NCBI RefSeq assembly: GCF_004795915.1
Contig: NZ_CP039253.1
Coordinates: 4,615,501 to 4,679,500, forward strand
DNA: 64,000 bases
Direction of reading: 5' to 3'
Origin: Rhodococcus sp. PAMC28707
GTDB lineage: Bacteria > Actinomycetota > Actinomycetes > Mycobacteriales > Mycobacteriaceae
Under the pieces are notes generated by a model. It was not told the origin of the DNA, did not search any database, and was given only the letters and a program-made list of their open reading frames with translations. Made by a program: the position numbers and the translations under genes. Below are positions 6,026-22,051 of the stretch, one piece after another (the stretch's first letter is position 1; each line of letters begins with the position of its first letter).

Positions 6026-7276
6026 GTGATAAGTCAGTCGCCCGCACCACGCCAGCCCGTGCGGTTGCCGTCACGGTTCAGAGCGGCCAGCATCTTGCTC
6101 GGTCCCGCTTTCGTTGCGGCGATCGCCTATGTCGATCCGGGGAATGTCGCCTCGAACGTCAGTGCGGGCGCGCAGTTCGGCTATCTACTGGTGTGGGTGA
6201 TCGTGGCGGCGAATGTGATGGCCGGACTCGTGCAATTCCTGTCCGCGAAGCTCGGCATCGTCACCGGCATGACGCTTCCCGAGGTCGTCCGCTCGAAATC
6301 GAGTAGATCTGTGCGACTTGCATATTGGTCTCAAGCGGAGATCGTCGCCATGGCGACCGACCTCGCCGAGGTCGTCGGTGGTGCGATTGCACTGTATCTA
6401 TTGTTCGACCTGCCACTTCTTGCCGGCGGCCTGATCACCGGGCTGGTGTCGATGATGTTGTTGTTGGTGCAGGATCGGCGTGGACAACGGCCGTTCGAGT
6501 TCGTGATCCTCGGGTTGCTTGCGGTCATTGCCATCGGCTTCCTCGCCAGCGTGTTCGTCGAACCCCCGTCGTTTTCGCAGGCCGCTGCGGGACTTGTCCC
6601 ACGATTCGACGGTGTAGAAAGCGTGTTGCTCGCAGCAGCGATGCTGGGCGCAACGATCATGCCGCACGCGGTCTACCTCCACTCCGGACTCGCACGTGAT
6701 CGCCACGGCAATCCCGAACCAGGACCGGTACGTCGGCGGCTGTTGCGGATCACCCGAGTAGACGTCGGATTGGCAATGCTGTTGGCCGGAGCCGTCAACA
6801 TGTCGATGCTGCTCTTGGCGGCAACAACTCTCGGCGGACGCGATGGTGTCGACTCGATCGAGGGTGCCCACGCGGCGGTAGCGGAGACATTGGGTCCAGT
6901 GGTCGCGCTGCTGTTCGCGGTAGGGCTCCTTGCGTCGGGGCTCGCGTCGACTTCGGTGGGGGCGTATGCGGGCGCGATGATCATGGACGGCCTACTGCGC
7001 AAACGGATTCCGATTGTGCTGCGGCGAGTGGTGACGCTGGTGCCTGCACTCCTCATTCTTGCTGCTGGGATCGATCCCAGCCGCGCACTCGTCGTCTCCC
7101 AGGTCGTGTTGTCTTTCGGCATCCCGTTCGCATTGATCCCATTGGTGCGGTTCACTTCCGATCGAGTATTGATGGGACAGGATGTCAATCACCGGATCAC
7201 GGCCTGTGCGGCGTGGCTCATCGCAGCCATCATCGTTGTTTTGAATGTGGCCCTGATCTATCTGACCGTGACATGA
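6026..7276 (+). CDS. mntH: Nramp-family divalent metal (Mn2+/Fe2+) transporter
   Basis: About 416 residues with around eleven hydrophobic segments. The metal-binding signature of helix 1, YVDPGNVASN, and of helix 6, TIMPHAVYLHS, are both intact, as required for proton-coupled Mn2+/Fe2+ uptake. The frame is open back to 5879, but those residues are not family-like; GTG 6026 (MISQSPAPRQPV) is closer to the usual N-terminus and leaves the 22-bp palindrome in the promoter. Start choice is uncertain because the ribosome site is weak. The gene is single and divergent from the MFS gene. Confidence 0.88.
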   Translation: MISQSPAPRQPVRLPSRFRAASILLGPAFVAAIAYVDPGNVASNVSAGAQFGYLLVWVIVAANVMAGLVQFLSAKLGIVTGMTLPEVVRSKSSRSVRLAYWSQAEIVAMATDLAEVVGGAIALYLLFDLPLLAGGLITGLVSMMLLLVQDRRGQRPFEFVILGLLAVIAIGFLASVFVEPPSFSQAAAGLVPRFDGVESVLLAAAMLGATIMPHAVYLHSGLARDRHGNPEPGPVRRRLLRITRVDVGLAMLLAGAVNMSMLLLAATTLGGRDGVDSIEGAHAAVAETLGPVVALLFAVGLLASGLASTSVGAYAGAMIMDGLLRKRIPIVLRRVVTLVPALLILAAGIDPSRALVVSQVVLSFGIPFALIPLVRFTSDRVLMGQDVNHRITACAAWLIAAIIVVLNVALIYLTVT

Positions 7277-7284
7277 GATTGTGT

Positions 7285-7308
7285 GTTCGAGGCACGAATT
7301 GCGGGTAG
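7285..7308 (+). promoter_or_regulatory. SigF/SigB-like promoter before the YrhK gene
   Basis: GTTC (7285-7288), 14 bases and GGGTAG (7303-7308) resemble the general-stress promoter consensus. The predicted start of RNA near 7316 is 30 bases before ATG 7346. Confidence 0.4.
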
Positions 7309-7345
7309 TTACCTATGCATCACACTCGAACAGCGGGAGCCTCGA

Positions 7346-7621
7346 ATGAGCGAACTGACCTTTACCATCGGGCACGAGGAACTGGTGATTCGTCAGCGTT
7401 GGGAGGTCGTCAGTATCGTCAACGACATCCTGGTTGCGGTCTGGTTCATCATCGGCAGTGTCTTGTTTTTCGGCGAGACGACTGCAGTCGCGGGCACATG
7501 GTTGTTCTTGATCGGCAGTGTCGAGCTCTTGATTCGCCCGATGATCAGGCTCGCTCGACGCATCCACATTCAACGGGTCAGGCAGGGGACTGGGGTCTCG
7601 GACTCCAGTGACGACTACTGA
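7346..7621 (+). CDS. YrhK-like small membrane protein
   Basis: 91 residues. The first part, FTIGHEELVIRQRWEVVSIVND, leads into two hydrophobic segments (about residues 25-45 and 52-68), followed by a basic cytoplasmic-type stretch RLARRIHIQRVRQ. This matches the YrhK family, whose biochemical role is not known. ATG 7346 follows a GGGAG-like sequence and gives the family's normal N-terminus; the frame extends upstream without similarity. A SigF-like promoter in front suggests general stress expression. Confidence 0.72.
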   Translation: MSELTFTIGHEELVIRQRWEVVSIVNDILVAVWFIIGSVLFFGETTAVAGTWLFLIGSVELLIRPMIRLARRIHIQRVRQGTGVSDSSDDY

Positions 7622-7696
7622 CATCGCCCGGGGCTCGAGCGAGGGCCAGCCGCCGAAGTCAGCTTTCCGGCAGTTCCGAAATCCAAGGAGAAAACA

Positions 7697-8026
7697 GTGA
7701 TCTTCATCGTCGTACAGTTCGAGACGAAGCCCGAGTGGACCGAGCGTTGGCCCGGGCACGTAGCCGAGTTCACCGCGAATACCCGCGCCGAGGCGGGCAA
7801 TTTATGGTTCGAATGGTCTCGCAGCCTCGAAGATCCATCTGTCTACGTATTGCTCGAGGCCTTCCGCGATGACGAAGCCGGTGGTGCACACGTCAACAGT
7901 GATCACTTCAAGAAGGCGATGGAAGAACTCCCGCAAGCTCTTGCGTCGACGCCCAAGATCGTCAGCCAGACCGTGGATGCATCCGGCTGGGGCGAGATGG
8001 GCGAAATGTCGGTCGAAGCTCAGTAG
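7697..8026 (+). CDS. Antibiotic biosynthesis monooxygenase (ABM/YgiN-like) protein
   Basis: 109 residues of the dimeric ferredoxin-like ABM fold: an N-terminal strand MIFIVVQFETKP, the NLWFEWSRSLEDP strand, the FLLEAF-like YVLLEAFRDDEAGGAH and SDHFKKAMEELP helix. The His in GGAHVNSDHF is the position usually conserved in YgiN-type quinol monooxygenases. It may oxidise quinol-like compounds or detoxify them; substrate unknown. CCAAGGAG lies before GTG/ATG 7697. It stands alone between the YrhK gene and the SulP promoter. Confidence 0.8.
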   Translation: MIFIVVQFETKPEWTERWPGHVAEFTANTRAEAGNLWFEWSRSLEDPSVYVLLEAFRDDEAGGAHVNSDHFKKAMEELPQALASTPKIVSQTVDASGWGEMGEMSVEAQ

Positions 8027-8143
8027 TCGCATGGGCGGTTGAGCTCCAAGGTGGACTCGACCCCGAAAGGGCATTCGGCTATGAAGCCTGGAATTCTCTG
8101 ATTGCCCTTTTGCGTGAGATGAGTCATGGAATAGCGTTCCCAA

Positions 8144-8174
8144 GTGAAACTCTACCCCAAGGGGAGAGTAGGTT
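8144..8174 (+). promoter_or_regulatory. MerR-type promoter/operator driving the SulP gene
   Basis: A near-palindrome, ACTCTACCCC (8149-8158) / GGGGAGAGT (8161-8169), lies between a -35-like GTGAAA (8144-8149) and a -10-like TAGGTT (8169-8174). The spacer is 19 bp, the long spacing characteristic of MerR-activated promoters. The SulP start is 120 bases downstream, and a MerR gene follows SulP, so that regulator is the best candidate to bind here. Confidence 0.65.
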
Positions 8175-8293
8175 TGGGAGCAGTGCTTTCCAGGGGCGCC
8201 CGTCCAGGGAGGTTGCTCTCGACACCGACAAGTGTTCAACACCCCGCATCTTCGGTTCACACCACATTCCTCGACAGAGAATGGAGCATCTAC

Positions 8294-9802
8294 ATGGCTT
8301 CCGCGGCCACCGCAGAGCAGACGATCGAACCACAATGGACGGTGTGGTCTGCGCTGCGATCGCCGCGGCGGTTGCGGACCGAGGTTCTCGCCGGGCTGGT
8401 GGTGGCGTTGGCTCTGATTCCAGAGGCGATCTCGTTCTCGGTCATTGCCGGCGTCGACCCGCGTGTCGGGCTGTTCGCGTCGTTCACCATGGCGGTGACG
8501 ATCTCGATCGTAGGTGGTAGACCTGCAATGATTTCGGCGGCCACCGGTGCAGTGGCCTTGGTCATCGCGCCATTGGTGCGGGACTACGGCGTCGAGTATC
8601 TGATCGCGACTGTCATTCTCGCCGGGGTTCTGCAGATACTGCTCAGCGTGGTGGGGGTCGCCAAATTGATGCGGTTCATCCCACGCAGCGTCATGGTGGG
8701 ATTCGTCAATGCGCTGGCCATACTCATCTTCATCGCCCAGGTTCCGCACCTTATCGGGGTCCCCTGGCTGGTGTATCCCATGGTTGCCATCGGGATCGTA
8801 GTAATGGTGTTCTTGCCCAAGTTGAGCACCATCGTCCCTGCGCCGCTGGTCGCGATCGTGTTGCTGACGGCAGCGACGATCGTTTTCGCGCTGAATGTTC
8901 CCAATGTCGGTGACGAGGGGGAACTTCCGTCGAGTTTGCCGTCGCTACTTCTTCCTGACGTTCCCGTCACGTTCGAGACGCTGAAGATCATCGCCCCGTA
9001 CGCGTTCACGATGGCCATCGTCGGTCTGCTCGAGTCGCTGATGACTGCGAAGTTCGTCGACGACATCACCGATACTCACTCGAACAAGACCAGAGAGTCC
9101 TGGGGCCAGGGTGTCGCCAATATCGTCACCGGATTCTTCGGCGGTATGGGCGGTTGCGCGATGATTGGGCAGACGATGATCAACGTCAAGACCTCCGGTG
9201 CACGAACTCGGATCTCGACGTTCCTCGCGGGCGTGTTCCTGCTGATTCTCGTCGTCGGTCTGGGCGACGTAGTCTCACTGATCCCGATGGCCGCGTTGGT
9301 GGCGGTGATGATCATGGTTTCGGTCGGCACCTTCGATTGGCACAGCATCGCCCCGGCGACATTGCGCCGGATGCCCACGAGCGAAACCCTCGTCATGGTC
9401 GCCACGGTCGCGGTCACCGTTGCGACCGACAATCTCGCCTACGGGGTGGCGGTCGGAGTCGTGACCGCGATGGTCCTGTTCGCGCGACGCGTCGCGCATC
9501 TGACGGAGGTCGTCGATGTGGCACACCCGGACCCGGACACCCGCGTCTACGCAGTGCATGGTGAGTTGTTCTTCGCCTCCAGCAACGATTTGATCTATCA
9601 GTTCGATTACGTCGGCGACCCTGCCAATATCGTCATCGACATGTCGTCGTCACATATCTGGGATGCGTCGACCGTCGCGACTCTCGACGCGATCACCACC
9701 AAATACGCAGCCAAGGGGAAGACCGCGACCATCGTCGGGTTGAACGAGGCCAGCGCGCAGCGACACGGGCTACTGAGCGGGAAACTCGGCGCAGGGCACT
9801 GA
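8294..9802 (+). CDS. SulP-family anion transporter with STAS domain
   Basis: 502 residues. Sulfate-transporter membrane core: [27 protein letters not shown] (helix 1-2 signature) and [16 protein letters not shown] (family motif with inner repeat). A C-terminal cytoplasmic STAS domain starts near residue 420 ([31 protein letters not shown]). It would carry sulfate, bicarbonate or another anion; which one is not shown. ATG 8294 follows GAATGGAG. An upstream GTG at 8144 falls inside the -35 of the MerR promoter and is rejected. The gene is followed by a MerR regulator. Confidence 0.87.
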
Positions 9803-9837
9803 CGGGTTCACGCGTGTAAAGAAGGAGCTATGCGGAT

Positions 9838-10233
9838 ATGCCTCAACGCCAAGACGAAGCGGCACATATGCAGATCGGCAACGTCGCAGCGCGAACCGAA
9901 CTGTCCATCAAGACAATTCGTCACTACGACGATGCGGGCTTGGTGACACCGTCGGCGCGAAGTAGAGGCGGGTTCCGCTTGTACACCGAATCAGATGTGC
10001 AGCGGCTGCTCGTCATACGGCGCATGAAACCACTGGGATTCACGCTCGGGGAGATGCGCGAACTTCTTACCGCTCTCGACGCGCGAGCAGATGGATCCGC
10101 CGACCGCGAGGTACGAGCAACTGCCGCGCGATACGTCGACGAATGTCATCGACGCGCCGAAAGCACGTGCGCCGAATTGCGAACGCAGCTCGCTTACGCC
10201 GAAGAATTCACCGCACTCCTTGCGCAGCCCTGA
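9838..10233 (+). CDS. MerR-family transcriptional regulator
   Basis: 131 residues. The N-terminal winged helix-turn-helix is clear (MQIGNVAARTELSIKTIRHY, DDAGLVTPSARSRGGFRLY, then LLVIRRMKPLGFTLGEMRELL), followed by a coiled-coil dimerisation helix. The short C-terminal part has one Cys only (residues 95-115 include DECHRRAESTC with two), with no classic metal-binding loop. It lies 35 bases after SulP on the same strand with GAAGGAG before ATG 9838. The promoter of SulP has MerR-type spacing, so it likely controls SulP and itself. Confidence 0.85.
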   Translation: MPQRQDEAAHMQIGNVAARTELSIKTIRHYDDAGLVTPSARSRGGFRLYTESDVQRLLVIRRMKPLGFTLGEMRELLTALDARADGSADREVRATAARYVDECHRRAESTCAELRTQLAYAEEFTALLAQP

Positions 10234-10236
10234 TCG

Positions 10237-10977
10237 TCACACTCCGGCAACACCCAACAGTTGTCCGATCAGGTAGGTCACGATCATGGCCAGCGCGCCA
10301 CCGATGACGATGCGCCACATTGCAGGGCCCGGCCGCGAACCGCCCAGGCGCGCGCTGACCTGGCCGGTCAACGCCAGTGCCAACAGAACCGCCACGAAGG
10401 TCACCGGAATTCGAGCTGACGCCGGTGGCGCGAGTATCGCAATGAGGGGCAACGCTGCGCCCAATGTGAAGGACAGAGCAGACGACAGTGCCGCCTGAAT
10501 CGGGCTGGTCAGGTTATCCGGGTCGAGGTGGAGTTCGGCGTCGACGTGCGCTGCGAAAGCGTCGTGCGCGGTGAGTTCGTGAGCGACGGTGAGGGCAGTG
10601 GCCCGGCTGAGCCCCTTGCTTTCGTATATCGAGGTCAGCTCTTCCAGTTCCGCGTCGGGATCGTCACGCAACTCTATTCTTTCCTTGGCCAGTAGGGACT
10701 TCTCGCTGTCCCGCTGGGTGCTCACCGACACGTACTCGCCGAGTGCCATCGACACGGCACCTGCGACAAGACCGGCGACGCCTGCAGTGAGTATCGGTCC
10801 CCGCTCGGCCGAAAGCGCCGCAACGCCGACGACGAGTCCTGCCGTGGAGACTATTCCGTCGTTGGCGCCGAGCACACCCGCGCGCAGCCAATTGAGCCGT
10901 GACGAAAGACCCTCGTCGTGCTGTTCCCCAGGGTGGGCTGCGTACTTCTTGTCGCCCAGGCCGTTCGACTCGCTCAT
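10237..10977 (-). CDS. VIT1/CCC1-family Fe2+/Mn2+ membrane transporter
   Basis: 246 residues. RAGVLGANDGIVSTAGLVVGVA is the family signature in the first membrane helix, followed by AVSMALGEYVSVSTQRDSE, a cytoplasmic acidic helical hairpin containing the metal-binding Glu residues (SEKSLLAKERIELRDDPDAELEEL), and three more membrane segments at the C-terminus. The family exports or sequesters iron and manganese. ATG 10977 (MSESNGLGDKK) gives a normal N-terminus. It converges with the MerR gene (3 bp apart) and is divergent from the CDGSH gene, which is also iron-related. Confidence 0.82.
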   Translation of the reverse strand: MSESNGLGDKKYAAHPGEQHDEGLSSRLNWLRAGVLGANDGIVSTAGLVVGVAALSAERGPILTAGVAGLVAGAVSMALGEYVSVSTQRDSEKSLLAKERIELRDDPDAELEELTSIYESKGLSRATALTVAHELTAHDAFAAHVDAELHLDPDNLTSPIQAALSSALSFTLGAALPLIAILAPPASARIPVTFVAVLLALALTGQVSARLGGSRPGPAMWRIVIGGALAMIVTYLIGQLLGVAGV

Positions 10978-11100
10978 AGTGCAAACGCTAGTTTCGATCT
11001 CGGCTACGCGCCAGCAATGCAAGGCTTCCCGTAGTCCGTCTGGCGGCTGCCGCCCGTGCCCGTCGCCTCATCGGTGTTGTCATTCGGCGCAGGAGGACAC

Positions 11101-11211
11101 ATGATTCGAAGCGGAGGCTGCGGGGTAAACCCCGGACTGCCTCACCGTCAGCTTTGCAGCGGAAGCAAAGCACACAGTCAGGTGTGTTGTTCACACTGTG
11201 GTGTCGAGTAG
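11101..11211 (+). CDS. Short Cys-rich ORF upstream of the CDGSH gene (possible leader peptide)
   Basis: A 36-codon ORF starts MIRSGGCGVNPG and ends SQVCCSHCGVE, with five Cys, three of them clustered near the end. AGGAGG at 11091-11096 is four bases before ATG, the strongest ribosome site in the neighbourhood. The stop is 16 bases before the CDGSH start. In mycobacteria short Cys-rich ORFs act as cysteine-responsive attenuators of downstream genes; whether this does the same is inference. It could also be a small metal-binding peptide. Confidence 0.45.
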   Translation: MIRSGGCGVNPGLPHRQLCSGSKAHSQVCCSHCGVE

Positions 11212-11227
11212 ATCGGGTAAGAACCTC

Positions 11228-11446
11228 ATGTCACGTACACGTATTCGCGTGGTGGATCGCGGGCCGATGCTTGTGGACGGTCCGGTGGAGATCACCATGC
11301 CCGACGGATCCCAGGTCGTATCGGATCGCAGTGTCGTCGCGCTCTGCATGTGTAAGCGGAGCAAGATCTATCCGTTCTGCGACACCAGCCACCGTGCTCG
11401 CCGAGAGCGGACGCCCGCAGCGACGATCGGTCGAGCCGTCGAGTAG
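11228..11446 (+). CDS. CDGSH-type iron-sulfur protein
   Basis: 72 residues. The motif CMCKRSKIYPFCDTSH fits the CDGSH [2Fe-2S] pattern C-x-C-x2-S-x3-P-x-C-D-x-S-H, with Thr in place of the usual Gly; three Cys and one His can ligate the cluster. Upstream is a beta-rich part (RIRVVDRGPMLVDGPVEITMPDG) common in small bacterial CDGSH proteins. It probably carries or senses electrons or Fe-S clusters. ATG 11228 is preferred; a GTG at 11198 is in frame. It follows the Cys-rich ORF and is divergent from the VIT1-like gene. Confidence 0.82.
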   Translation: MSRTRIRVVDRGPMLVDGPVEITMPDGSQVVSDRSVVALCMCKRSKIYPFCDTSHRARRERTPAATIGRAVE

Positions 11447-11511
11447 ACCGGCTCGCCGCTTGACACCGAGGCGGGCCATCGGATTTCGCCCGATCTTGTG
11501 AAGACCACCGG

Positions 11512-12576
11512 TCAAAAGTCGACGATTGCCGAGATGTGCGTCTCCAAATTGATTCGCACCCTTCCCGACGGCGGTGGCGTGCCCAATCCGAAAGTGCGCA
11601 CAACTGCCGCAACCGAGGCGCCGCCGAGTGCGACATCGCTGCCGAGTTGGGGCCAAGTGGACAGCGACACTCCGATTTCCGGTAGCGAAGCGAGCATCCG
11701 GGGAGTCAGTTTTGTGGGGTCGAGAATCCGCGCAGCCAGCGGTGCCTTCTGCTCCGGTGTGATGTCAGCCAGGGAGCGGGCATCGAGATCTCCGAGGAGG
11801 CCGTGTAGCAATGGTCTGGTCGGTTCGAGATCGAACCGTTCGACATCGAGTATTCCGCCGTCGCTGGTCTCCATCAAAACTGGTATGCCTCGACTTCTGG
11901 CGGCCTCACGGAGAGTCAACTTCGCGTCGAGCGAATCGCATTCGTCGATGACGATATCGAGTCCGTCCATGAACGTGTCCATGCTGGAGGCGATCAGACC
12001 TTCGGGGTGTGTAACCACTGTCAAGTATGGATCGAGTTCGGCGATTCGGCGTGCCGCGACCGTGGTTTTGTTGATGTCGAGGTCGAACACCGATGCCGGG
12101 ACTCTGTTGAGATTGGACAGGTCGAGGACGTCGAAATCGGCGAGTCTGAGCTCACCGCACAGTCCTTCGATAGCGATGGTGTGCGCCACGGCGTGCCCCA
12201 CGCTGAGCCCGACGACTCCCACGCGCAGTTCGGTCATCCGCTCCTGCTCGGAGAGGGTGATTTTGTTTCTGTTTCGGTCCAGTCGCAGAGTCCGAAAGCC
12301 TTTCGGCCCGAGTAGTTTCACGAGCGAGTTTCTCCACGGATAGTGAATCCACCGTTGTGGCTCGTCGAGGACCTCTGCCGATGGGGTGGGCAAAAGACCC
12401 ATCAACGATTCAAGCTGGTTTTGTGACGCGTCGAGAATCCGTATTCCGGGTTGAGCCGCTAGTTCCTCGACGGTTGCTATATCGCTCTCGAGGGCCGAAT
12501 TCAGTATCCGATGTTCTGACACGTGGATCTCACTCTTCTCGTTCGGACGCTCGAGCAGGTGCTCCGCTGTCGTCAA
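11512..12576 (-). CDS. ThiF/E1-like adenylyltransferase-fold protein, Rv1355c (MoeY)-like, without nitroreductase domain
   Basis: 354 residues. An N-terminal region (WIHYPWRNSLVKLLGPKGFRT, LRLDRNRNKIT) precedes an E1-like nucleotide-binding domain: LRVGVVGLSVGHAVAHTIA is the nucleotide turn, ADFDVLDLSNLNR holds the conserved Asp and Arg, DINKTTVAARRIAELDPYL the conserved Lys, and IVIDECDSLDAK the later acidic strand. This is the pattern of M. tuberculosis Rv1355c, which as I recall carries an extra C-terminal nitroreductase domain; here the protein ends after ThiF. No CxxC zinc pairs are seen. It is divergent from the acyltransferase-like gene and lies near a GGDEF gene, as Rv1355c lies near Rv1354c. 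Substrate unknown. Confidence 0.72.
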   Translation of the reverse strand: MTTAEHLLERPNEKSEIHVSEHRILNSALESDIATVEELAAQPGIRILDASQNQLESLMGLLPTPSAEVLDEPQRWIHYPWRNSLVKLLGPKGFRTLRLDRNRNKITLSEQERMTELRVGVVGLSVGHAVAHTIAIEGLCGELRLADFDVLDLSNLNRVPASVFDLDINKTTVAARRIAELDPYLTVVTHPEGLIASSMDTFMDGLDIVIDECDSLDAKLTLREAARSRGIPVLMETSDGGILDVERFDLEPTRPLLHGLLGDLDARSLADITPEQKAPLAARILDPTKLTPRMLASLPEIGVSLSTWPQLGSDVALGGASVAAVVRTFGLGTPPPSGRVRINLETHISAIVDF

Positions 12577-12851
12577 GATAACCGATCCAGGTGCGCTCTG
12601 TGTTCACTGACGTCCGATACGACTGCGAAATCGGTGTCGAAAGTCTTGACAGAGTGCGTCGTCGGTGCCGGAAGTACCACTATCCACAGTGTTGGGACGA
12701 AGATTTACGACCTTCGAACAGTCAAATGTTCCACGACCAGGAAGAATTGCCTGGTTGCCACTTGGCAACTGAACTGTCGGCGCCCGATAGCGTCGGCCTT
12801 CGCCCCTTGCCGGGGACCTTTGGAACTCGGCATGTCTTCTTAGGAGAAACC
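12577..12851. promoter_or_regulatory. Divergent promoter region with inverted repeats
   Basis: The 275-bp gap between the ThiF and acyltransferase genes holds GTTGCCA (12754-12760) - CT - TGGCAAC (12763-12769), a perfect 16-bp palindrome. Next to it CCAGG (12737-12741) and CCTGG (12750-12754) form another inverted repeat. A TTGACA hexamer is at 12646-12651 without a clear -10. The palindrome lies 83 bases before GTG 12852, a sensible operator position. No coding is seen here. Confidence 0.4.
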
Positions 12852-13640
12852 GTGTCTGCACCTGCGACAGTCAATTACCGAAATGCAACCCCTAGCGCGA
12901 ACTGGGGTTCGCGTGCCGCTCGGTCGAAGCTTTCAGGGATGCATCGGCCCGTCGACGCAATATTCGGCCCGAGAATCAGCCACTGCGAGGGATCGATGAC
13001 TCTCGTTGCGGCAATGCCTTCTGCAGCACCGAAACTCTGGACGAGGTATGTCGACGGTGCTTGGTCGTCGTACTCGCGCCATGGTGTGACGTGTGCTCTC
13101 GACATCGACGAGGTGGAATCGGGCGCGACGACAGCGTTGTTCTATGTCGTTCTCGGACCTGACGGGGAGATGCTCGGTGGTGTTCGGGCCCAGGGTCCTT
13201 ATACCTATGTCGAGCAGTCGCATGTGTTGACCGAATGGGCGGACTCACCGGGACTCGACGTGGTCAGAGGTCAACTCCGGACTCGACTTCCGCACGGAAT
13301 CATCGAGATGAAGAGCGCGTGGGTACGAGAGGGAGCGCCGGCGCGGGTGATCTCGGGACTGTTGGCGAGAACGGCGCTGCCGACCATCGAACTGACAGGG
13401 AGCAGGTACTTGTTCGCAAGTGCTGCCGACCATGTGCTTCGTCAGTGGGAAACATCCGGAGGGCGAATCGACACAACTGTGCCCGCTGCTGCGTACCCCA
13501 GCGATCAGTACCGCACGCGTTTGATGTGGTGGGATCGGGAGACCATTGCACGAGAAGCACATGCGGAGGTCTGGGGCCTTATGGAAAGCGACGCGCGTGC
13601 GTTGACCGGAAACGGCTATCACTCGTCTGCAGTCGCATAA
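12852..13640 (+). CDS. Putative acyltransferase with autoinducer-synthase-like (LuxI/FeeM, GNAT-like) features
   Basis: 262 residues; GTG 12852 is five bases after AGGAG. I do not recognise a named family with certainty. The segment DIDEVESGATTALFYVVLGP followed by DGEMLGGVRAQGPY has the pattern of acyl-homoserine-lactone and N-acyl-amino-acid synthases (acidic residues, strand, short turn with Gly, strand ending in a conserved Arg). IIEMKSAWV could be the matching later strand. A GNAT-like N-acyl transferase that joins an acyl group to an amine is therefore a reasonable guess. It is divergent from the ThiF gene and converges on the diguanylate cyclase, which suggests shared function. Confidence 0.45.
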   Translation: MSAPATVNYRNATPSANWGSRAARSKLSGMHRPVDAIFGPRISHCEGSMTLVAAMPSAAPKLWTRYVDGAWSSYSRHGVTCALDIDEVESGATTALFYVVLGPDGEMLGGVRAQGPYTYVEQSHVLTEWADSPGLDVVRGQLRTRLPHGIIEMKSAWVREGAPARVISGLLARTALPTIELTGSRYLFASAADHVLRQWETSGGRIDTTVPAAAYPSDQYRTRLMWWDRETIAREAHAEVWGLMESDARALTGNGYHSSAVA

Positions 13641-13667
13641 TGGACATCGAAGCTACGACTGCGGGGA

Positions 13668-14819
13668 TCATATTCGAGGGGATAACGATTCATCGGTCTG
13701 CCGCGTCGAGTTCCACGTGACCATTATTGTCCCGGCGTGTGACGCACGGTCGCGGCCACTGGATTTGGCAGCGTAGAGGGCGTTGTCGGCGGCGTGCATG
13801 AGTGTATCGATGACTTGCTCGACGTGGGGGCTCTCCAACTCACCGTCGATGGTGAGCCGGGGATCGAGGACGGCACGGACGTCTGCAGTGACAGATCCGA
13901 TACTGACGGTGACCACGCATTCGGAGCGGACACGTTCGAGAATGTTCGATTCGAAACAATGGTTTTCGGTAAGGGGAGTCAATACGAGAAATTCTTCGCC
14001 ACCGATGCGAGAGACGATCGTTCCTTTCGATCCGGTCTCCTCGGTTGCATGAACGAGGGCATCAGCAATTGTCACGAGTATGAGATCGCCTGCAGCGTGG
14101 CCATGACTGTCGTTCACGGCCTTGAAATGGTCGATGTCGATGACATGGGCGGACAACTGACTGCGACTGTCGCACGTCCGGTCGAGCAATGCTTCTACCT
14201 GTGTCATCATGCCGCGGCGATTGAGCAGACCGGTGAGTGGATCGGTATTCGCCAGGACATTGAGGCGCTTGTTGACGGTGAGTAGAGACCGGCGAAGGGT
14301 CGCGATCAGGATCACCGGTACCAGCACAGACGTTGCTCCCGCACCGATAGCGACAATAGTGACCGCAACGCCTGAGGACGAGAGACTGACGGCCGACAAC
14401 CACGTCGCCATTGCCACCGAACCTGCCGTGAGAGCGGCAGTCATGCGGGGCGAGGAGCCGGACGCTGCAATTGCAGGTACAACGGCAAGCAGTGACGTTA
14501 CTGCTCGCGTACCGGCAGGATCGGCGATGAGGTAAGCCGAAATTGCGACACCGATCATGCCGCCGGCACCGAGGACAGCGAACTGCCCATCTGTCAGTTT
14601 GCCGACGTGCACGGCGTAGAGCACGGTAATCGCTGTGAAGACGACGATTGCGGTCAGGAGGGGTAGCGCGCCGTCGCGAAGGAACGACGGTGAGATCAGC
14701 GCAATTGCCAGTAGCGGCAGCGCCCCAGAGGCGCTCGTGATCACCATCGTTGTCCGCGTATCGAATCGCGTCCAGAACGACTTCGATTCGGACTTGTTTC
14801 GGCGCAAGGTCGCACTCAT
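13668..14819 (-). CDS. Membrane diguanylate cyclase (GGDEF)
   Basis: 383 residues. Six or so hydrophobic segments at about residues 25-175 form a membrane sensor without a named domain. The cyclase domain follows: DPLTGLLNRRG (about 193), DIDHFKAVNDSHGHAAGD (228-245) with the metal-binding Asp, and an intact active site GGEEF (273-277). Thus it should make cyclic di-GMP from two GTP. The inhibitory RxxD site five residues before GGEEF is absent, so feedback inhibition is not expected. There is no EAL domain, unlike Rv1354c. It converges with the acyltransferase-like gene, 27 bp apart. Confidence 0.88.
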   Translation of the reverse strand: MSATLRRNKSESKSFWTRFDTRTTMVITSASGALPLLAIALISPSFLRDGALPLLTAIVVFTAITVLYAVHVGKLTDGQFAVLGAGGMIGVAISAYLIADPAGTRAVTSLLAVVPAIAASGSSPRMTAALTAGSVAMATWLSAVSLSSSGVAVTIVAIGAGATSVLVPVILIATLRRSLLTVNKRLNVLANTDPLTGLLNRRGMMTQVEALLDRTCDSRSQLSAHVIDIDHFKAVNDSHGHAAGDLILVTIADALVHATEETGSKGTIVSRIGGEEFLVLTPLTENHCFESNILERVRSECVVTVSIGSVTADVRAVLDPRLTIDGELESPHVEQVIDTLMHAADNALYAAKSSGRDRASHAGTIMVTWNSTRQTDESLSPRI

Positions 14820-14937
14820 GTATGAATAGCCTCGGTTCGCCGCCGGATGTAGCCGAAAGCATATCGCGGGGACAGTCAGCCCGACGATCTTGATGCCCCG
14901 GCGCGGTGGACTTTTTTTCTATCGCCGTGGTGGCAGG

Positions 14938-17010
14938 CTAGGTCGCGAGCGGGGTTTGCGGCGAGGACTGAATCAGTAGACGTTTGATCACCTTGCCGGT
15001 TGCTGTCCGCGGAAGCTCGTCGAGGAACGTGACGTCGCGAGGCACTGAGAATCGGCTCAGCCGATTTCTGATGTAGAGACGAACCATGTCATCGTCCAGT
15101 CCTGCGGCGCCGCGCATCACGACGAATGCGGCCAGCCTCTGACCGTATTCCTTGTCCGATACACCTACCACTGCGACCTCGCCGACTTGCGGAAGATGAG
15201 CAATCGCATCCTCGACAGGACCAGGAAAGACGTTCTCTCCACCTGAGATGATCATCTCGTCGTCCCGGCCGCTGACGAACAACCGGCCGTTGCAGTCCAG
15301 GTAGCCCAGATCGCCGGTGTCCATCATGTCCGCCCCCAGGCCTGCTGTGACAGCAGGCCTGGGGGCGTTGGTATATCCGTTGAACAGCATGTCGTTACCT
15401 ACGAAAATTCTGCCGACAGAGCCGCGCGGAACCGGATCACCTCCGCCGTCGAGAATGGCCACAAGAGTTCCAAGGGGCGGCTTTCCGGCCGTAGTAGGAG
15501 CAGCTCTGAGGTCGGCAGGTCCGGCGACCGTCGCCCACGACACCTCTGTAGAGCCGTAGAAGTTGTACAGAACGTCACCGAATGTGTCCATGAAGCGAGT
15601 GACCATGGAGCCTGCCAGCACCGATCCGCTGCATGCCACTACCCGCAGGCTCGAGGTGTCGTACCGCGCGCGGACGTCCGGGGGTAACTCGAGGATACGT
15701 TGCAGCATGATCGGCACCGCGATGAGCGAGGTACAACGATTCTCTGCAATCGCTTGCAAGCAGGATTCAGGTTCGAATCTGTCCTGCAACACGACCGTCG
15801 ATCGCAGCGGTGTACTGAGCTGAAGTGCCGCCAGACCCCAGCTGTGGAACAGTGGGGCGGCGATCATCATTCGCTCGTTCACCTGCAGCGGCATCTTCGA
15901 CAACATCGCTGCGATCGTCCCGAACCCTTTGGCGGTGGGGCGGAATGCGCCTTTGGGAGTTCCGCTCGTTCCGGAGGTGAGAACCACCAATGTTCCCGGA
16001 TGCTCGGGCCGAAAGAATGTCGCGGACGGGGGTGCCACAAGCTGCTCGAGCAGGCGCCTGCCAGGAACGGTCGAGCGCGAGGAGAGGCTGATTCGTGGCA
16101 CTTCCTGGGCCACATGCGAGATGATCGAGTCGAACTCGTCGTCGGCGAACAAGGCTTTCAGCTGATGGTGGTCGGCGATACTTTCGATTTGTCGTGCTGC
16201 CAGGCCGGTGTTCAACAGCACCACGTCTACCCCCAGTAATCCGCAGGCGACGGTGCATTCGGTCATCGCGATGTGATTGCGTGCCAGCACCCCGACGGTG
16301 TCTCCGGAGCGCAGCCCCATCGCGTACAAACCCGCAGCTATGCGGTGTGACCGTTGATGTACTTCTGCGAACGTCCGAGTTCCTCGGTCGTCGATAAGCG
16401 CGATGGCATCCGGTGATGTCGCCGCGGCTGCCCCGAACCCGCCGCCCAGCGTGAAACCCCATTTGGACAAAGAATTCAGTTGTCGAAATGCAAGATCTGG
16501 ACGTGCAGTGCGGATGACACCGGTTTTGTACATTGTCTTGGCGATATCGAGTTGCATCGTCCGGGAGTTACCCGAACCGGAGAGAACAGAGGTCTGCTTC
16601 CCCGCCAGGTAGTCGGCAAGGTGCGCGAACCCTGCTCGCAACCAATCGCATACAACGCTGTTGCGGTCGGGAACACGCGAGTACGCGCCGTTCAGGGATG
16701 CTTTGAACACAGTCACGTCGACCGTGCATCGGCCCGGCGAAACCTCGGTGAGGTGGACATTGACGAATCCGCCGGAATCGAGATGAGTGATCGACATCGT
16801 CGTTCTCACGTAATCGAGGTCGAGACGCAAAGCGTGATCGATGCTGTCGACCCTTGCCGTGAACGCGCCCGGAATCGATTCCGATACAGGCAGGCAGGAC
16901 TCTAGTCCCATGAAGAACCGGCAATACCATTCCGGCGCAGTCACGATTTCCCAGACTTGATCTTTCGAATGTTCGAAGTCGATGGTCACATCGATCACGT
17001 CGGACAACAT
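14938..17010 (-). CDS. START/SRPBCC domain fused to acyl-CoA ligase (AMP-binding)
   Basis: About 690 residues. Residues 1-150 form an SRPBCC lipid-binding fold (DVIDVTIDFEHSKDQVWEIV, then DYVRTTMSITHLDSGGF). From about 185 an acyl-CoA synthetase follows: P-loop LTSGTSGTPKGAF, YGSTE motif, TGDLGYL, GRDDEMIISGGENVFP and the C-terminal catalytic Lys in RTATGKVIKR. All motifs are intact, so it should adenylate and thioesterify a carboxylic acid; the START part may deliver the lipid. ATG 17010 is preferred to a TTG at 17094. A 37-nt perfect hairpin lies in frame at 15331-15367. It is downstream of, and probably cotranscribed with, the diiron-type gene. Confidence 0.78.
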   Translation of the reverse strand: MLSDVIDVTIDFEHSKDQVWEIVTAPEWYCRFFMGLESCLPVSESIPGAFTARVDSIDHALRLDLDYVRTTMSITHLDSGGFVNVHLTEVSPGRCTVDVTVFKASLNGAYSRVPDRNSVVCDWLRAGFAHLADYLAGKQTSVLSGSGNSRTMQLDIAKTMYKTGVIRTARPDLAFRQLNSLSKWGFTLGGGFGAAAATSPDAIALIDDRGTRTFAEVHQRSHRIAAGLYAMGLRSGDTVGVLARNHIAMTECTVACGLLGVDVVLLNTGLAARQIESIADHHQLKALFADDEFDSIISHVAQEVPRISLSSRSTVPGRRLLEQLVAPPSATFFRPEHPGTLVVLTSGTSGTPKGAFRPTAKGFGTIAAMLSKMPLQVNERMMIAAPLFHSWGLAALQLSTPLRSTVVLQDRFEPESCLQAIAENRCTSLIAVPIMLQRILELPPDVRARYDTSSLRVVACSGSVLAGSMVTRFMDTFGDVLYNFYGSTEVSWATVAGPADLRAAPTTAGKPPLGTLVAILDGGGDPVPRGSVGRIFVGNDMLFNGYTNAPRPAVTAGLGADMMDTGDLGYLDCNGRLFVSGRDDEMIISGGENVFPGPVEDAIAHLPQVGEVAVVGVSDKEYGQRLAAFVVMRGAAGLDDDMVRLYIRNRLSRFSVPRDVTFLDELPRTATGKVIKRLLIQSSPQTPLAT
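15331..15367. repeat. Perfect 37-nt hairpin inside the acyl-CoA ligase gene
   Basis: Arms of 17 bp (15331-15347 and 15351-15367, beginning CGCCCCCAGG and CAGCAGGCCT) are exact inverted repeats around TGA. It encodes APRPAVTAGLGA in the ligase, in the variable loop just before the TGDLG motif. Such a long perfect arm is not expected by chance in coding DNA; it may be an inserted palindromic unit. Confidence 0.75.
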
Positions 17011-17127
17011 AGCGGTTCCGCCCCCAGTCAGACGTGCGCCCCACCAGTGCGGGGATTGCTTGATCCAAACCCAATATCGGATGGTAGACGGCAACCGGCA
17101 CGCCTGAGCAGCGTTCGGGAAAGTTTT

Positions 17128-18111
17128 TCAGATCAGGCTGGACGCGCCTGAGTGCCACGCTGTCAGTACTCGGTCACCCAGCGCAGCGTCGACAAAATCG
17201 AGAGCGCGCATCCCGAAGACGATGTCGGACTCGAGATGGGGTTCTGTACGAATGAGGCCGCCGACGACGTCGTGACGCAATAACTGCTCGTGCACGGCGT
17301 CTGCCTCGACGTGCTCGGCGTAGAACTCGATGCAGGCCTGCGGTGCCCCTAGCCGCTCGAGGCCGGTGACCAACCGCTGTGACCCGGGCGAGGACGTGAT
17401 CTCAGTGGCAGCGAAGTGCCCGACCGTAGCGCCGCGCAGTCCCCGGTGCAGACCGAAGAGCGACATCAAATTGACCCAGGCGAGCGTCTCGGCAGGCACT
17501 CGATCGGTATATCCGAGGTAAGTCGAATTCAGGTCGGCGGCATCCATCAGGTCTGCCCACAATTTCTGATGTACTCGCTCACCGCGCCCGCCGCCGTACT
17601 CGTCGAACTCGACCGCGACGTACGACGCTTTTACCTGTCCGTGCAGCCGAGGAATTGCCCATGCGTGCGGGTCGGCTTCCTTGAGATGGTAGATCGACCG
17701 GTGAACGAAGTACTCGCGCATGTGTTCCCACGAACCTTCATTGCGCAGATACCAGGAAGGCCCGGTACCCGAAGAATGCGCAACGGACAAGTACTCCATT
17801 TCGGCAATCGCGTCGTTCCCTGGCTCGACGCTGTCGCGAAGATACGACATGAACGACTCTTCCAAGCCTGCGCGGAATCGCAGCACATCCGGATTCCATT
17901 CCCAGCGGTCGTCGACTCCGGCGAAGCCTCGGTAGTGCAACTCGTAGCACGTAGCCAACGCCACATGGAGGTCCCGAGACATCGGATCCACTCCACCGGA
18001 AGCCGGGGGCGCAGTTGTCGACTTACCGGTGATGAAGTCCACGACAGCGGCCGACAAGGGACCACAGGGTGCAGGTAGGGGAGGCGACGAAACGAGTGCA
18101 GTACTTGTCAT
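17128..18111 (-). CDS. Haem-oxygenase-like diiron oxidase family protein (iron-containing redox enzyme type)
   Basis: 327 residues, predicted all-helical. Candidate metal ligands in the family spacing are Glu in FRAGLEESFMSYL, the HMREYFVHRSIYH region with His, and VAVEFDEYGGGRGERVHQKLW with Glu, Asp and His, plus a C-terminal EHVEADAVHEQLLRHDV where E, D and H are spaced as in the last ligand helix. This family includes decarboxylating, N-oxygenating and C-C cleaving enzymes (UndA, BesC and SznF types). It is followed on the same strand by the START-acyl-CoA ligase, so a fatty-acid-like substrate is plausible. ATG 18111 follows AGGAT. Confidence 0.68.
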   Translation of the reverse strand: MTSTALVSSPPLPAPCGPLSAAVVDFITGKSTTAPPASGGVDPMSRDLHVALATCYELHYRGFAGVDDRWEWNPDVLRFRAGLEESFMSYLRDSVEPGNDAIAEMEYLSVAHSSGTGPSWYLRNEGSWEHMREYFVHRSIYHLKEADPHAWAIPRLHGQVKASYVAVEFDEYGGGRGERVHQKLWADLMDAADLNSTYLGYTDRVPAETLAWVNLMSLFGLHRGLRGATVGHFAATEITSSPGSQRLVTGLERLGAPQACIEFYAEHVEADAVHEQLLRHDVVGGLIRTEPHLESDIVFGMRALDFVDAALGDRVLTAWHSGASSLI

Positions 18112-18138
18112 CGATCCTGTTTACCCCTTCCGCCCGAA

Positions 18139-18174
18139 GCCAATCTCCTCTCGGACGTCCGAGAGGAGATTGGC
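18139..18174. terminator. Perfect 36-bp palindrome, probable I-shaped terminator
   Basis: 18139-18156 (GCCAATCTCCTCTCGGAC) is followed directly by its exact complement 18157-18174, with no unpaired loop. It lies 64-100 bases after the katG stop and 28 bases before the diiron gene start. With no T tract it could be a terminator or an operator for the downstream gene. Confidence 0.55.
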
Positions 18175-18187
18175 GAGAGCACAGTCC

Positions 18188-18222
18188 GTCCGACGCAACG
18201 GGGTGAACCCGCTGCGTCGGAC
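18188..18222 (-). terminator. katG terminator hairpin
   Basis: GTCCGACGCA (18188-18197) pairs with TGCGTCGGAC (18213-18222), and inside the loop GGG pairs with CCC around TGAA. It starts 16 bases after the katG stop codon. No strong T tract. Confidence 0.6.
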
Positions 18223-18237
18223 CGACAATTATTCTGC

Positions 18238-20505
<2,268 letters not shown>

Positions 20506-20949
20506 TCATGATTGTGATCGTGAACTCTGTGGGGGCGCGCAATCTGGGCAGATGCCCCAGAACACGACCTCGGCTTCGTGTACAGCGAATCCTCGAGTGT
20601 CGGATGCGGTGAGGCAGGGAGCCGATCCGACCGTGCAATCGACGTCGGAGATAGCCCCGCACGAGGTGCATACGAGGTGGTGGTGATTGTCGCCGACTCT
20701 GGATTCGTACCGCGCCACGGAACCGGCGGGTTGGATGCGGCGCACGAGCTGTGCGGCAGTCAAGGCGCTGAGCACGTCGTAGACGGCTTGCCTGGAGACG
20801 ACCGGCAGTTCAGCGCGAACTACGGCATAGATGGACTCGGTGTCCGAGTGCGGGTACGTGTGCACCGCGTCGAGAACCTCGATGCGAGGGCGCGTGACAC
20901 GAAGTGCTGCATCGCGCAACATCTCCCGGTAGTTGGGCCTCGAGGTCAC
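20506..20949 (-). CDS. furA: Fur-family regulator FurA
   Basis: 147 residues starting VTSRPNYREMLRDAALRVTRPR, closely like mycobacterial FurA. A winged-helix domain (about 10-85: SIYAVVRAELPVVSRQAVYDVLSALTAAQLVRRI) precedes the metal/dimer domain with HHHLVCTSCGAISDVDC and the C-terminal CPDC, two CxxC zinc pairs. It represses its own operon with katG and responds to peroxide and metal. GTG 20949 lies where the predicted transcription start falls, so the message is probably leaderless, as described for mycobacterial furA. Confidence 0.93.
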   Translation of the reverse strand: MTSRPNYREMLRDAALRVTRPRIEVLDAVHTYPHSDTESIYAVVRAELPVVSRQAVYDVLSALTAAQLVRRIQPAGSVARYESRVGDNHHHLVCTSCGAISDVDCTVGSAPCLTASDTRGFAVHEAEVVFWGICPDCAPPQSSRSQS

Positions 20950-20956
20950 CCCTGTG

Positions 20957-20986
20957 ATACGACTCTCATTTCTTGAACAAGTCAAG
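20957..20986 (-). promoter_or_regulatory. furA-katG promoter and FurA operator
   Basis: On the - strand, TTGACT (20985-20980), 17 bases, and TCGTAT (20962-20957) form -35 and -10. The -35 lies within the dyad CTTGA-N5-TCAAG (20972-20986). The same arrangement stands before mycobacterial furA. The RNA start would be close to the GTG at 20949. Confidence 0.65.
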
Positions 20987-21121
20987 TATTCGTCCGATAT
21001 CCGCCTATACCTCGGAAGGACGCTCTGGTCATCGTCGCGCCCAGTTCGAAGTCCCCGTCGATCTCGAACTCGTGGTAGACAGGTCGCGTTCGGATGGGCG
21101 TTCGAGGTCGGGTGGTCGGAG

Positions 21122-22051
21122 ATGGTGGGCAACAGCAGCGTGTGGTCGCGCCCGAACCAATCGATGTTCCCGGCGTCGATCGTCAGCGTCCTGTTCGTTC
21201 TCGGCATGGTGACCGGTTGGCTTTTGCTGTACTCGGTCAGCATTCTCGGTGCGCTGTGGAGAATGCAGGAGCCCAACGCGCCTGCCCCAGTGCTGAGCGT
21301 GTCGGATCAACTTGCCGACCTCATTGCGCTGGCGGTCCAGATGTCGTTGGGATTCATAGCGATCGGGCTGACTCTCGTCTTGCGTCGACGCACTCTCGCC
21401 ACTGTGTTGCCCGAGCGCCATGGAACTGCACTCGATGCGGCCATCGCATGGTGCGCGGCCATCGCAGGTGCATCAGCGGTCGTGTTGGTGCTCGGCCAGC
21501 TAGGTATCGCGCGGTTCGACTTCTCGGTGCCGGCGGTCGTGGAGTCACCCTGGCTGGCTGTCGCTTCAGCGTTGGCAACCGGGTTGCGTGAGGAGCCACT
21601 CCTAGCGGCGTTGCCCGTTCTCCTTCTTGCGGGTCGACTACCGATCGGATGGATCGTGGTTCTCGCCGCCACCATGCGAGGCTTGCTCTACGTGTACTTC
21701 GGCTTCGGCGGGTTCGTGTGGGCATTCCTCTGGGGCGCAGCTGCGGTGTGGGTTTATTTCCGGTTCCGAAGGCTGTGGGTCCTGATACTTCTCCACGGTC
21801 TGGTGATGAACATGCAAGCCCTCGACCGTGTAATCGCCGACGACAATGCAGCAACCATTTTGCAATGGTGCAACATCCTGGTCCTTTTCGGTGCGTTGCT
21901 GTATTGGCTGGTACCACGTGCGCTCGACGCGGTGCTGCCGGGCGAATCGGAGACCCCTTCGGTCGATGGGCACACCGGCTCGGACGCGATTTCCGTGCAC
22001 GAAGTTCCGCCGACAGTGCGGCTTCCCGCCGAAGATGCAGACAGAGTGTGA
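21122..22051 (+). CDS. CPBP-family intramembrane protease-like protein
   Basis: 309 residues with about eight hydrophobic segments. GLREEPLLAALPVLL contains the EE pair of motif 1 of CPBP (CAAX/Abi) proteases, though the Arg that usually follows is shifted before it. MRGLLYVYFGFGGFVWAFLWG and LLHGLVMN (His and Asn) fit motifs 2-4. It may be an active or degenerate glutamic intramembrane peptidase; the substrate is unknown. ATG 21122 gives a short N-terminus; the open frame before it overlaps the furA promoter and is not coding. The last 45 residues are polar and acidic. Confidence 0.7.
   Translation: MVGNSSVWSRPNQSMFPASIVSVLFVLGMVTGWLLLYSVSILGALWRMQEPNAPAPVLSVSDQLADLIALAVQMSLGFIAIGLTLVLRRRTLATVLPERHGTALDAAIAWCAAIAGASAVVLVLGQLGIARFDFSVPAVVESPWLAVASALATGLREEPLLAALPVLLLAGRLPIGWIVVLAATMRGLLYVYFGFGGFVWAFLWGAAAVWVYFRFRRLWVLILLHGLVMNMQALDRVIADDNAATILQWCNILVLFGALLYWLVPRALDAVLPGESETPSVDGHTGSDAISVHEVPPTVRLPAEDADRV

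Follow-up and report, generated by a model that had tools for sequence, protein, structure and literature searches.

The window analysed here, a 64,000-nucleotide stretch of Rhodococcus sp. PAMC28707 (positions 4615501-4679500 of a single-contig 4.73 Mb genome, labelled G000), carries at 11512-14819 three neighbouring genes, for an N-acyltransferase (AT), a ThiF-type cyclase and a membrane-sensor diguanylate cyclase with a GGDEF domain, which form a cassette inherited as a unit. AT and ThiF resemble the mycobacterial enzymes of the published trzAS/tyz chemistry, which yields oxazolones (small fatty amino-acid rings), but the cassette has no oxidase and carries a membrane cyclase. We consider it probable, at roughly 0.65, that the three genes work as one functional cassette in which AT and ThiF would produce a saturated or re-opened oxazolone, with the membrane cyclase as their regulatory partner. 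The proposal builds on the observed co-inheritance, the AT fold, the intact ATP-site residues of ThiF, the absence of the oxidase and the existence of GGDEF-ThiF fusions; the substrates, the product and the direction of control are inferred. The features of the cassette are as follows.

11512..12576, minus strand: ThiF-type cyclase, member of the TrzS/Rv1355c family without the flavin oxidase (FDO) half at the C-terminus; NF005901 match at 9-342 of 722; residues N155/R158/K170/D214; no FDO remnant nearby
12577..12851: intergenic region common to the divergent ThiF/AT pair; AGGAGA before the GTG at 12852
12852..13640, plus strand: AT, TrzA-like, FeeM/LasI fold, divergent from ThiF and convergent with the GGDEF gene
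13668..14819, minus strand: membrane-sensor diguanylate cyclase; hydrophobic N-terminal half at about residues 1-180, GGDEF domain at 190-358 with GGEEF

An earlier reading of these letters made without database searches (the sequence-only reading) had claimed five open reading frames (ORFs) here, adding an acyl-CoA ligase and a haem-oxygenase-like diiron protein (HDO) to the three above. All five are present at the coordinates it gave, and dN/dS values of 0.065-0.214, from 15 comparisons against three close relatives, show purifying selection on each.

Co-inheritance of the three genes

Conservation was followed in two samples, one of 61 genomes (the window genome and 60 relatives, 37 of the 61 being of the window's genus) and one of named loci, the best 80 of 167 relatives ranked by likeness to the window AT. 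The closest of these 80, Rhodococcus sp. BP22, 1163, 1168 and H36-A4, have AT identities of 94-97%. Positions of AT and ThiF were set by tblastn, since our own gene-calling script overlooked some ATs. Of the 61 genomes, 39 have both an AT and an Rv1355c-type ThiF and the other 22 have neither, so that the co-occurrence check proposed by the sequence-only reading came out in favour of the pair. Within the genus, a full TrzS occurs in 28 of the 37 genomes, the window-type ThiF (at least 61% identity) in 29 and both in 20; a single one of the 29 (G027) has the FDO still attached. The AT adjoins the window-type ThiF in 23 of these 29 genomes, and the ThiF-GGDEF pair stands alone in six. Among 32 loci (L106 being excluded), 25 hold all three genes, six hold ThiF and GGDEF, and one at a contig end (L070) holds ThiF only, with no internal gene of 100 amino acids or more in any of them. 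Pairwise distances over 18 loci, uncorrected for species descent, correlate at r 0.957 for ThiF-GGDEF, 0.747 for AT-ThiF and 0.775 for AT-GGDEF. The flanks of the 32 loci make up 10 contexts if two common families are required and 1 context if one suffices. As there are only about 17 GGDEF genes in the 4.73 Mb window genome (18 matches, two from one frame-split gene), a GGDEF neighbour in any new context is improbable by chance. The sensor half of the cyclase, searched alone, is present in the same 29 of 37 genus genomes as the window-type ThiF (46-100% identity) and was not found in the other eight, apart from a 60-residue remnant carrying a stop, probably a product of decay (G011:C25:43377-43556).

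The association extends well beyond the genus. A GGDEF gene lies within the cluster at 73 of the 80 named loci, comprising 35 type I loci, 37 with the membrane sensor (type II) and L179, for which the GGDEF domain was the sole basis of assignment. Of the other seven loci, five have only an AT, one is a contig end (L204) and one is from Mycobacterium sp. DL99 (L211), where a TrzS-like ORF stops after the ThiF half, probably through decay. Type I, chiefly from Mycolicibacterium and Mycobacterium, has the AT, a ThiF-FDO protein and a soluble GAF-GGDEF-EAL protein on one strand (an architecture taken from Pfam matches on one protein), with ThiF-FDO about 5 kb upstream of the AT in five of the 35. 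Type II named loci with an FDO come from Williamsia, Gordonia, Dietzia and R. yunnanensis, and those without from Rhodococcus/Rhodococcoides (18) and Gordonia (2). The link between cyclase and ThiF is therefore wider than the M. tuberculosis Rv1354c/Rv1355c case from which it had been suggested. Genes for cyclic di-GMP (c-di-GMP) turnover accompany these enzymes repeatedly and in more than one architecture, since type I combines GGDEF with EAL and several type II cassettes have an EAL gene close by. Such EAL-type phosphodiesterase genes were seen on one or both sides at L077, L078, L080, L081, L082, L108, L242, L244-L246, L258 and L259, that of L147 (= L082) being confirmed by Pfam.

Joint action of the cyclase and the ring-forming enzyme is indicated most strongly by their fusion in Gordonia. 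In G. jacobaea (L200) and G. aichiensis (L201), single ORFs of 775 and 771 amino acids combine ThiF with the membrane sensor and GGDEF, and an AT lies next to each. Fusions were found in at least five of the 59 Gordonia genomes searched (G061, G062, G073, G093, G119), each beside an AT:

L200:8709-11033, minus strand
L201:8736-11048, minus strand
L240:4110-6449
L241:4255-6642
L243:6594-8918

Four further Gordonia genomes (G074, G092, G096, G097) have the same genes unfused, side by side, and no FDO match was obtained in the fetched stretches of the fused or unfused loci. The ThiF half of the L201 protein matches the Rv1355c family at 5e-71 over positions 22-349, below the family cut-off, and is 34-37% identical to that of the window. 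Other Gordonia ThiF ORFs (L250:5674-8088, L254:3792-6266) are 805-825 amino acids long and have no Pfam family at 0.01 in their first ~500 residues; the start of the L250 ORF seems out of frame, leaving its true length unsure.

Cassette genes are also found on plasmids, and on all six Rhodococcus plasmid records that carry the AT it is no more than about 1 kb from an Rv1355c gene. The two inspected have a full-length Rv1355c with FDO, an adjoining annotated GGDEF gene 37% identical to that of the window, and insertion sequences or recombinases nearby. Integrase/TniQ/ATPase-like genes, recognised by eye, lie near the cassette at L078, L079, L084 and L107, and annotated insertion sequences and recombinases at the plasmid loci L260 and L263. 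Genes of this sort near the cassette are a sign of its mobility.

Acyltransferase, ThiF protein and the absent flavin oxidase

The AT gave no Pfam or NCBIfam match, either in the longer frame from 12591, which was run against both, or in the frame from 12852. A Pfam search with 41 ATs returned noise only (best DUF5313, 0.0059, 4 rows), the autoinducer-synthase model was absent from the matches of these rows at E 10, with HMMER filters discarding weak matches, and a PDB sequence search with an AT profile found zero matches. An AlphaFold2 model (predicted local distance difference test score, pLDDT, 86.4) has FeeM and LasI as its best structural matches, ranked by a second comparison over Foldseek's own top 1000 chains, and the modelled fold is of the N-acyl amino acid synthase/autoinducer synthase kind. 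Structure prediction thus found an acyltransferase fold for 12852-13640, and the description of the protein as autoinducer-synthase-like was right as to fold. The AGGAGA upstream of its GTG start is retained in six relatives.

The ThiF protein matches PF00899 (3.6e-22) and the NCBIfam "Rv1355c family" NF005901 (503.9 bits, cut-off 476). Because the latter match ends at position 342 of 722, the protein is half of an Rv1355c, a qualification to its earlier Rv1355c-type label, which otherwise stood. Its ATP-site residues are intact, and N155, R158, K170 and D214 are invariant across 14 aligned rows; D214 was taken as D217 of TrzS by motif position, from an alignment that did not include the M. 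smegmatis sequence. The predicted GGDEF cyclase likewise kept its label, with a domain match and an intact GGEEF motif that is invariant in 27 rows.

The oxidase half is missing from the cassette. Using the C-terminal half of a TrzS as query, no FDO match was found in the window genome at E 1e-3, and the surroundings of ThiF, here and at 13 related loci, contain no FDO remnant (E 0.25 and 0.64 at best, the hit in the window falling inside the GGDEF gene). The fused or adjacent flavin oxidase by which trzAS/tyz/oxz-type loci are recognised is accordingly absent at this locus. Across the 37 genus genomes, FDO matches are strong in 28, weak in three (1.4e-4 to 5.7e-4) and lacking at E 1e-3 in six, the window's included. 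On a quick ThiF tree, which gave long-branch warnings for the Gordonia fusions, L185 and L171, the oxidase-less ThiF proteins of the window and the 18 named Rhodococcus/Rhodococcoides loci form a clade of 19 rows (Shimodaira-Hasegawa-like approximate likelihood ratio test, SH-aLRT, 97). As this clade is nested among FDO-bearing rows, a single FDO loss is the simplest reading. The split between types I and II needs one change on the same tree.

Proposed chemistry and its alternatives

The steps we propose are modelled on two published pathways, the N-acyl tryptazolone pathway of TrzA-TrzS (Rv1356c-Rv1355c; PMC12856293) and the tyrazolone pathway of TyzA-TyzB-TyzC (Rv2336-Rv2338c; PMC10404671). 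By analogy with TrzA/TyzA, the AT would take acyl-CoA as donor and acylate the amino group of tryptophan or a different aromatic amino acid. ThiF would then use ATP to adenylate the carboxylate and close the ring to a 2-alkyl-5(4H)-oxazolone. The acylation and ATP-dependent cyclisation are suggested by family and fold. Because the flavin oxidase half that desaturates the ring in TrzS is absent, the product should stay saturated, or water or an amine may re-open the ring. The membrane diguanylate cyclase would act as a regulatory partner, either tuned by the compound or supplying c-di-GMP that controls the ring-forming enzyme, a coupling to which linkage and fusion point.

The window cassette resembles TrzA-TrzS in having a FeeM-like acyltransferase adjoining an Rv1355c-family ThiF cyclase with an ATP-site aspartate and a c-di-GMP gene alongside, but it lacks the flavin oxidase half, and its AT is divergent rather than upstream in one operon. 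Unlike the soluble GAF-GGDEF-EAL protein of type I loci, its partner is a membrane-sensor GGDEF protein without EAL. In the tyz locus, too, the ThiF protein is free-standing, of comparable size (318 amino acids) and encoded on the strand opposite to the AT, but the TyzC flavin oxidase is adjacent to it. To FeeM and the acyl-homoserine lactone synthases LasI and BjaI the AT has 9-13% identity, with no LuxI-type Pfam match reported, and unlike these systems its step would be followed by ATP-dependent ring closure by a separate enzyme. The system had been put forward as possibly undescribed. Its acyltransferase-ThiF chemistry is already published as trzAS/tyzACB, whereas the oxidase-less variant, the membrane cyclase and the fusions do not appear in the passages on trzAS/tyzACB consulted, and nothing on a GGDEF-ThiF fusion or an oxidase-less cassette was found in the literature searched, subscription papers and preprints lying outside the search. 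In the consulted passages of PMC12856293, c-di-GMP genes beside trzAS are mentioned for M. tuberculosis only, in one sentence, and the physiological role of oxazolones is called a major unresolved question in the discussion. It is conceivable, if rather doubtful, that the cassette is a self-contained signalling circuit in which the membrane cyclase would be the dedicated receptor for the saturated N-acyl amino acid oxazolone made by AT and ThiF, a lactone-like compound analogous to acyl-homoserine lactones, and would convert it directly into a c-di-GMP signal, with the synthase step and the receptor in one protein in Gordonia. This would be the first function for oxazolones, of a quorum- or self-sensing kind that we did not find described. 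The fusion, together with the strict pairing of sensor and cassette in the genus, makes it a testable question whether the compound sets c-di-GMP or c-di-GMP sets the compound.

Several observations weigh against a single functional cassette. Six genus genomes (G001, G004, G014, G022, G034, G036) keep ThiF and GGDEF with the AT located elsewhere, which makes the AT the looser partner, and its 9% identity to FeeM in the structural match speaks for fold, not activity. At one locus (L106; L149) AT and GGDEF occur without ThiF, at L099 the closest GGDEF gene is several genes distant from the Rv1355c-type gene, and the Rv1355c-type gene of L211 has no GGDEF neighbour. On a Mycobacterium dioxanotrophicus plasmid the annotation of 11 kb shows an Rv1355c gene but no AT and no GGDEF, and on a Streptomyces plasmid a more distant ThiF gene adjoins a ketoacyl synthase. 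Five genus genomes have weaker relatives of the sensor (28-54% identity) outside the cassette, so the sensor family is not exclusive to it. In the N-acyl tyrosine clusters covered by the consulted part of PMC12479983, nitroreductase genes accompany ThiF genes and are missing where these are missing, so that a ThiF gene without an oxidase is not the rule elsewhere. One of the six nitroreductase-family genes above the Pfam cut-off in the window genome (one via a split match) could provide the missing oxidation.

This last point leads to an account that we regard as unlikely, in which a TrzS encoded in the same genome, or some other nitroreductase, carries out the oxidation in trans and the cassette yields an ordinary unsaturated oxazolone. 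It is favoured by the 20 genus genomes with both ThiF forms and by M. tuberculosis, in which TyzB and TyzC are separate proteins (PMC10404671), but nine of the 37 genomes have the short ThiF without a strong TrzS-type FDO match. That the trio is linked by history only, with GGDEF a hitch-hiking neighbour functionally unrelated to the oxazolone genes, is very improbable. Related genomes have neighbours in common through descent, all 32 loci collapse into one context under the looser flank rule, and some Rv1355c-type genes have no GGDEF neighbour; yet the five Gordonia fusions, the plasmid copies and the rarity of chance adjacency all stand against it, as does the pairing of one set of enzymes with c-di-GMP proteins of two dissimilar architectures, GAF-GGDEF-EAL and membrane GGDEF. 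Also quite improbable is a single pathway of all five genes, in which the ligase would supply acyl-CoA, AT and ThiF would build the oxazolone, and HDO would replace the flavin oxidase as desaturase or N-oxygenase. The two additional genes are:

14938..17094, minus strand: acyl-CoA ligase, N-terminus possibly SRPBCC-like; neighbour in the window clade only, outside the conserved cassette
17128..18111, minus strand: HDO, PF14518; neighbour in the window clade, outside the conserved cassette

In the window and four named clade genomes, HDO and ligase are adjacent (33 bp by the longest start) on the GGDEF strand. A further genome (G025) has an HDO 2.7 kb from the cassette, and in G019 HDO is also encoded at another site, which makes the copy by the cassette look like an extra. 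The window genome has no FDO match, and the E, D and H residues of HDO lie in columns aligned with SznF and HrmI. Against this, HDO is present in all 37 genus genomes (split in two pieces in G017), with or without FDO, lies away from the cassette in 31 of them and has differing neighbours at 10 other loci. The N-terminal half of the ligase is found in 23 of the 37 genomes and beside the cassette in only the five of the window's clade. In the stretches fetched around the 18 named oxidase-less Rhodococcus cassettes, four have both genes, one has HDO alone and 13 have neither. HDO as a general substitute for the lost FDO was rejected, as it tracks neither FDO loss nor the cassette, and the literature search found no paper linking haem-oxygenase-like diiron enzymes to N-acyl desaturation. 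The ligase and HDO are read as chance or clade-specific neighbours. The sequence-only reading had itself made the grouping depend on homologues staying together, and by that test the joint action of five genes is unsupported and the three-gene grouping holds.

Neighbouring genes and minor observations

The HDO label agreed with a PF14518 match of 1.3e-56, the nearest solved relatives being HrmI (1.1e-08) and SznF (0.0055). For the proposed START-domain acyl-CoA ligase, the ligase part was confirmed by Pfam and NCBIfam profiles; the START-like N-terminus had no such match in the window protein, and a 45%-identical homologous piece reached Polyketide_cyc2 at 0.0022, below the cut-off. At 13668-21276 the minus strand carries, in succession, a Fur-family gene, katG, and the HDO, ligase and GGDEF genes, and the katG-to-GGDEF run is kept in four relatives. 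Given this run, the cyclase could sit behind an oxidative-stress promoter. Promoter and terminator scans gave signals at about chance level, and nothing credible as a c-di-GMP riboswitch or other RNA was found within window positions 7000-22000.

An AurF-type diiron oxygenase and a ferredoxin-like oxidoreductase adjoin a lone AT in six genomes (L100, L101, L109-L112) and lie a few genes from the cassette at L071 and L073. The AurF-like gene was considered as a partner and is read as an old neighbour, a close copy being present in 33 of the 37 genus genomes, with the copy of the window genome remote from the cassette, at 1061070. At L093-L097 a ThiF of a distant class (37-40% identity) stands beside a PaaK-like adenylate-forming enzyme, for example at L095:6639-8045 with ThiF downstream. 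This enzyme has no Pfam match and matches PDB 6hdw (1.4e-4) and 2y27 (2.9e-4), and a member of the same family occurs near the AT-GGDEF pair without ThiF (L106:9688-11112).

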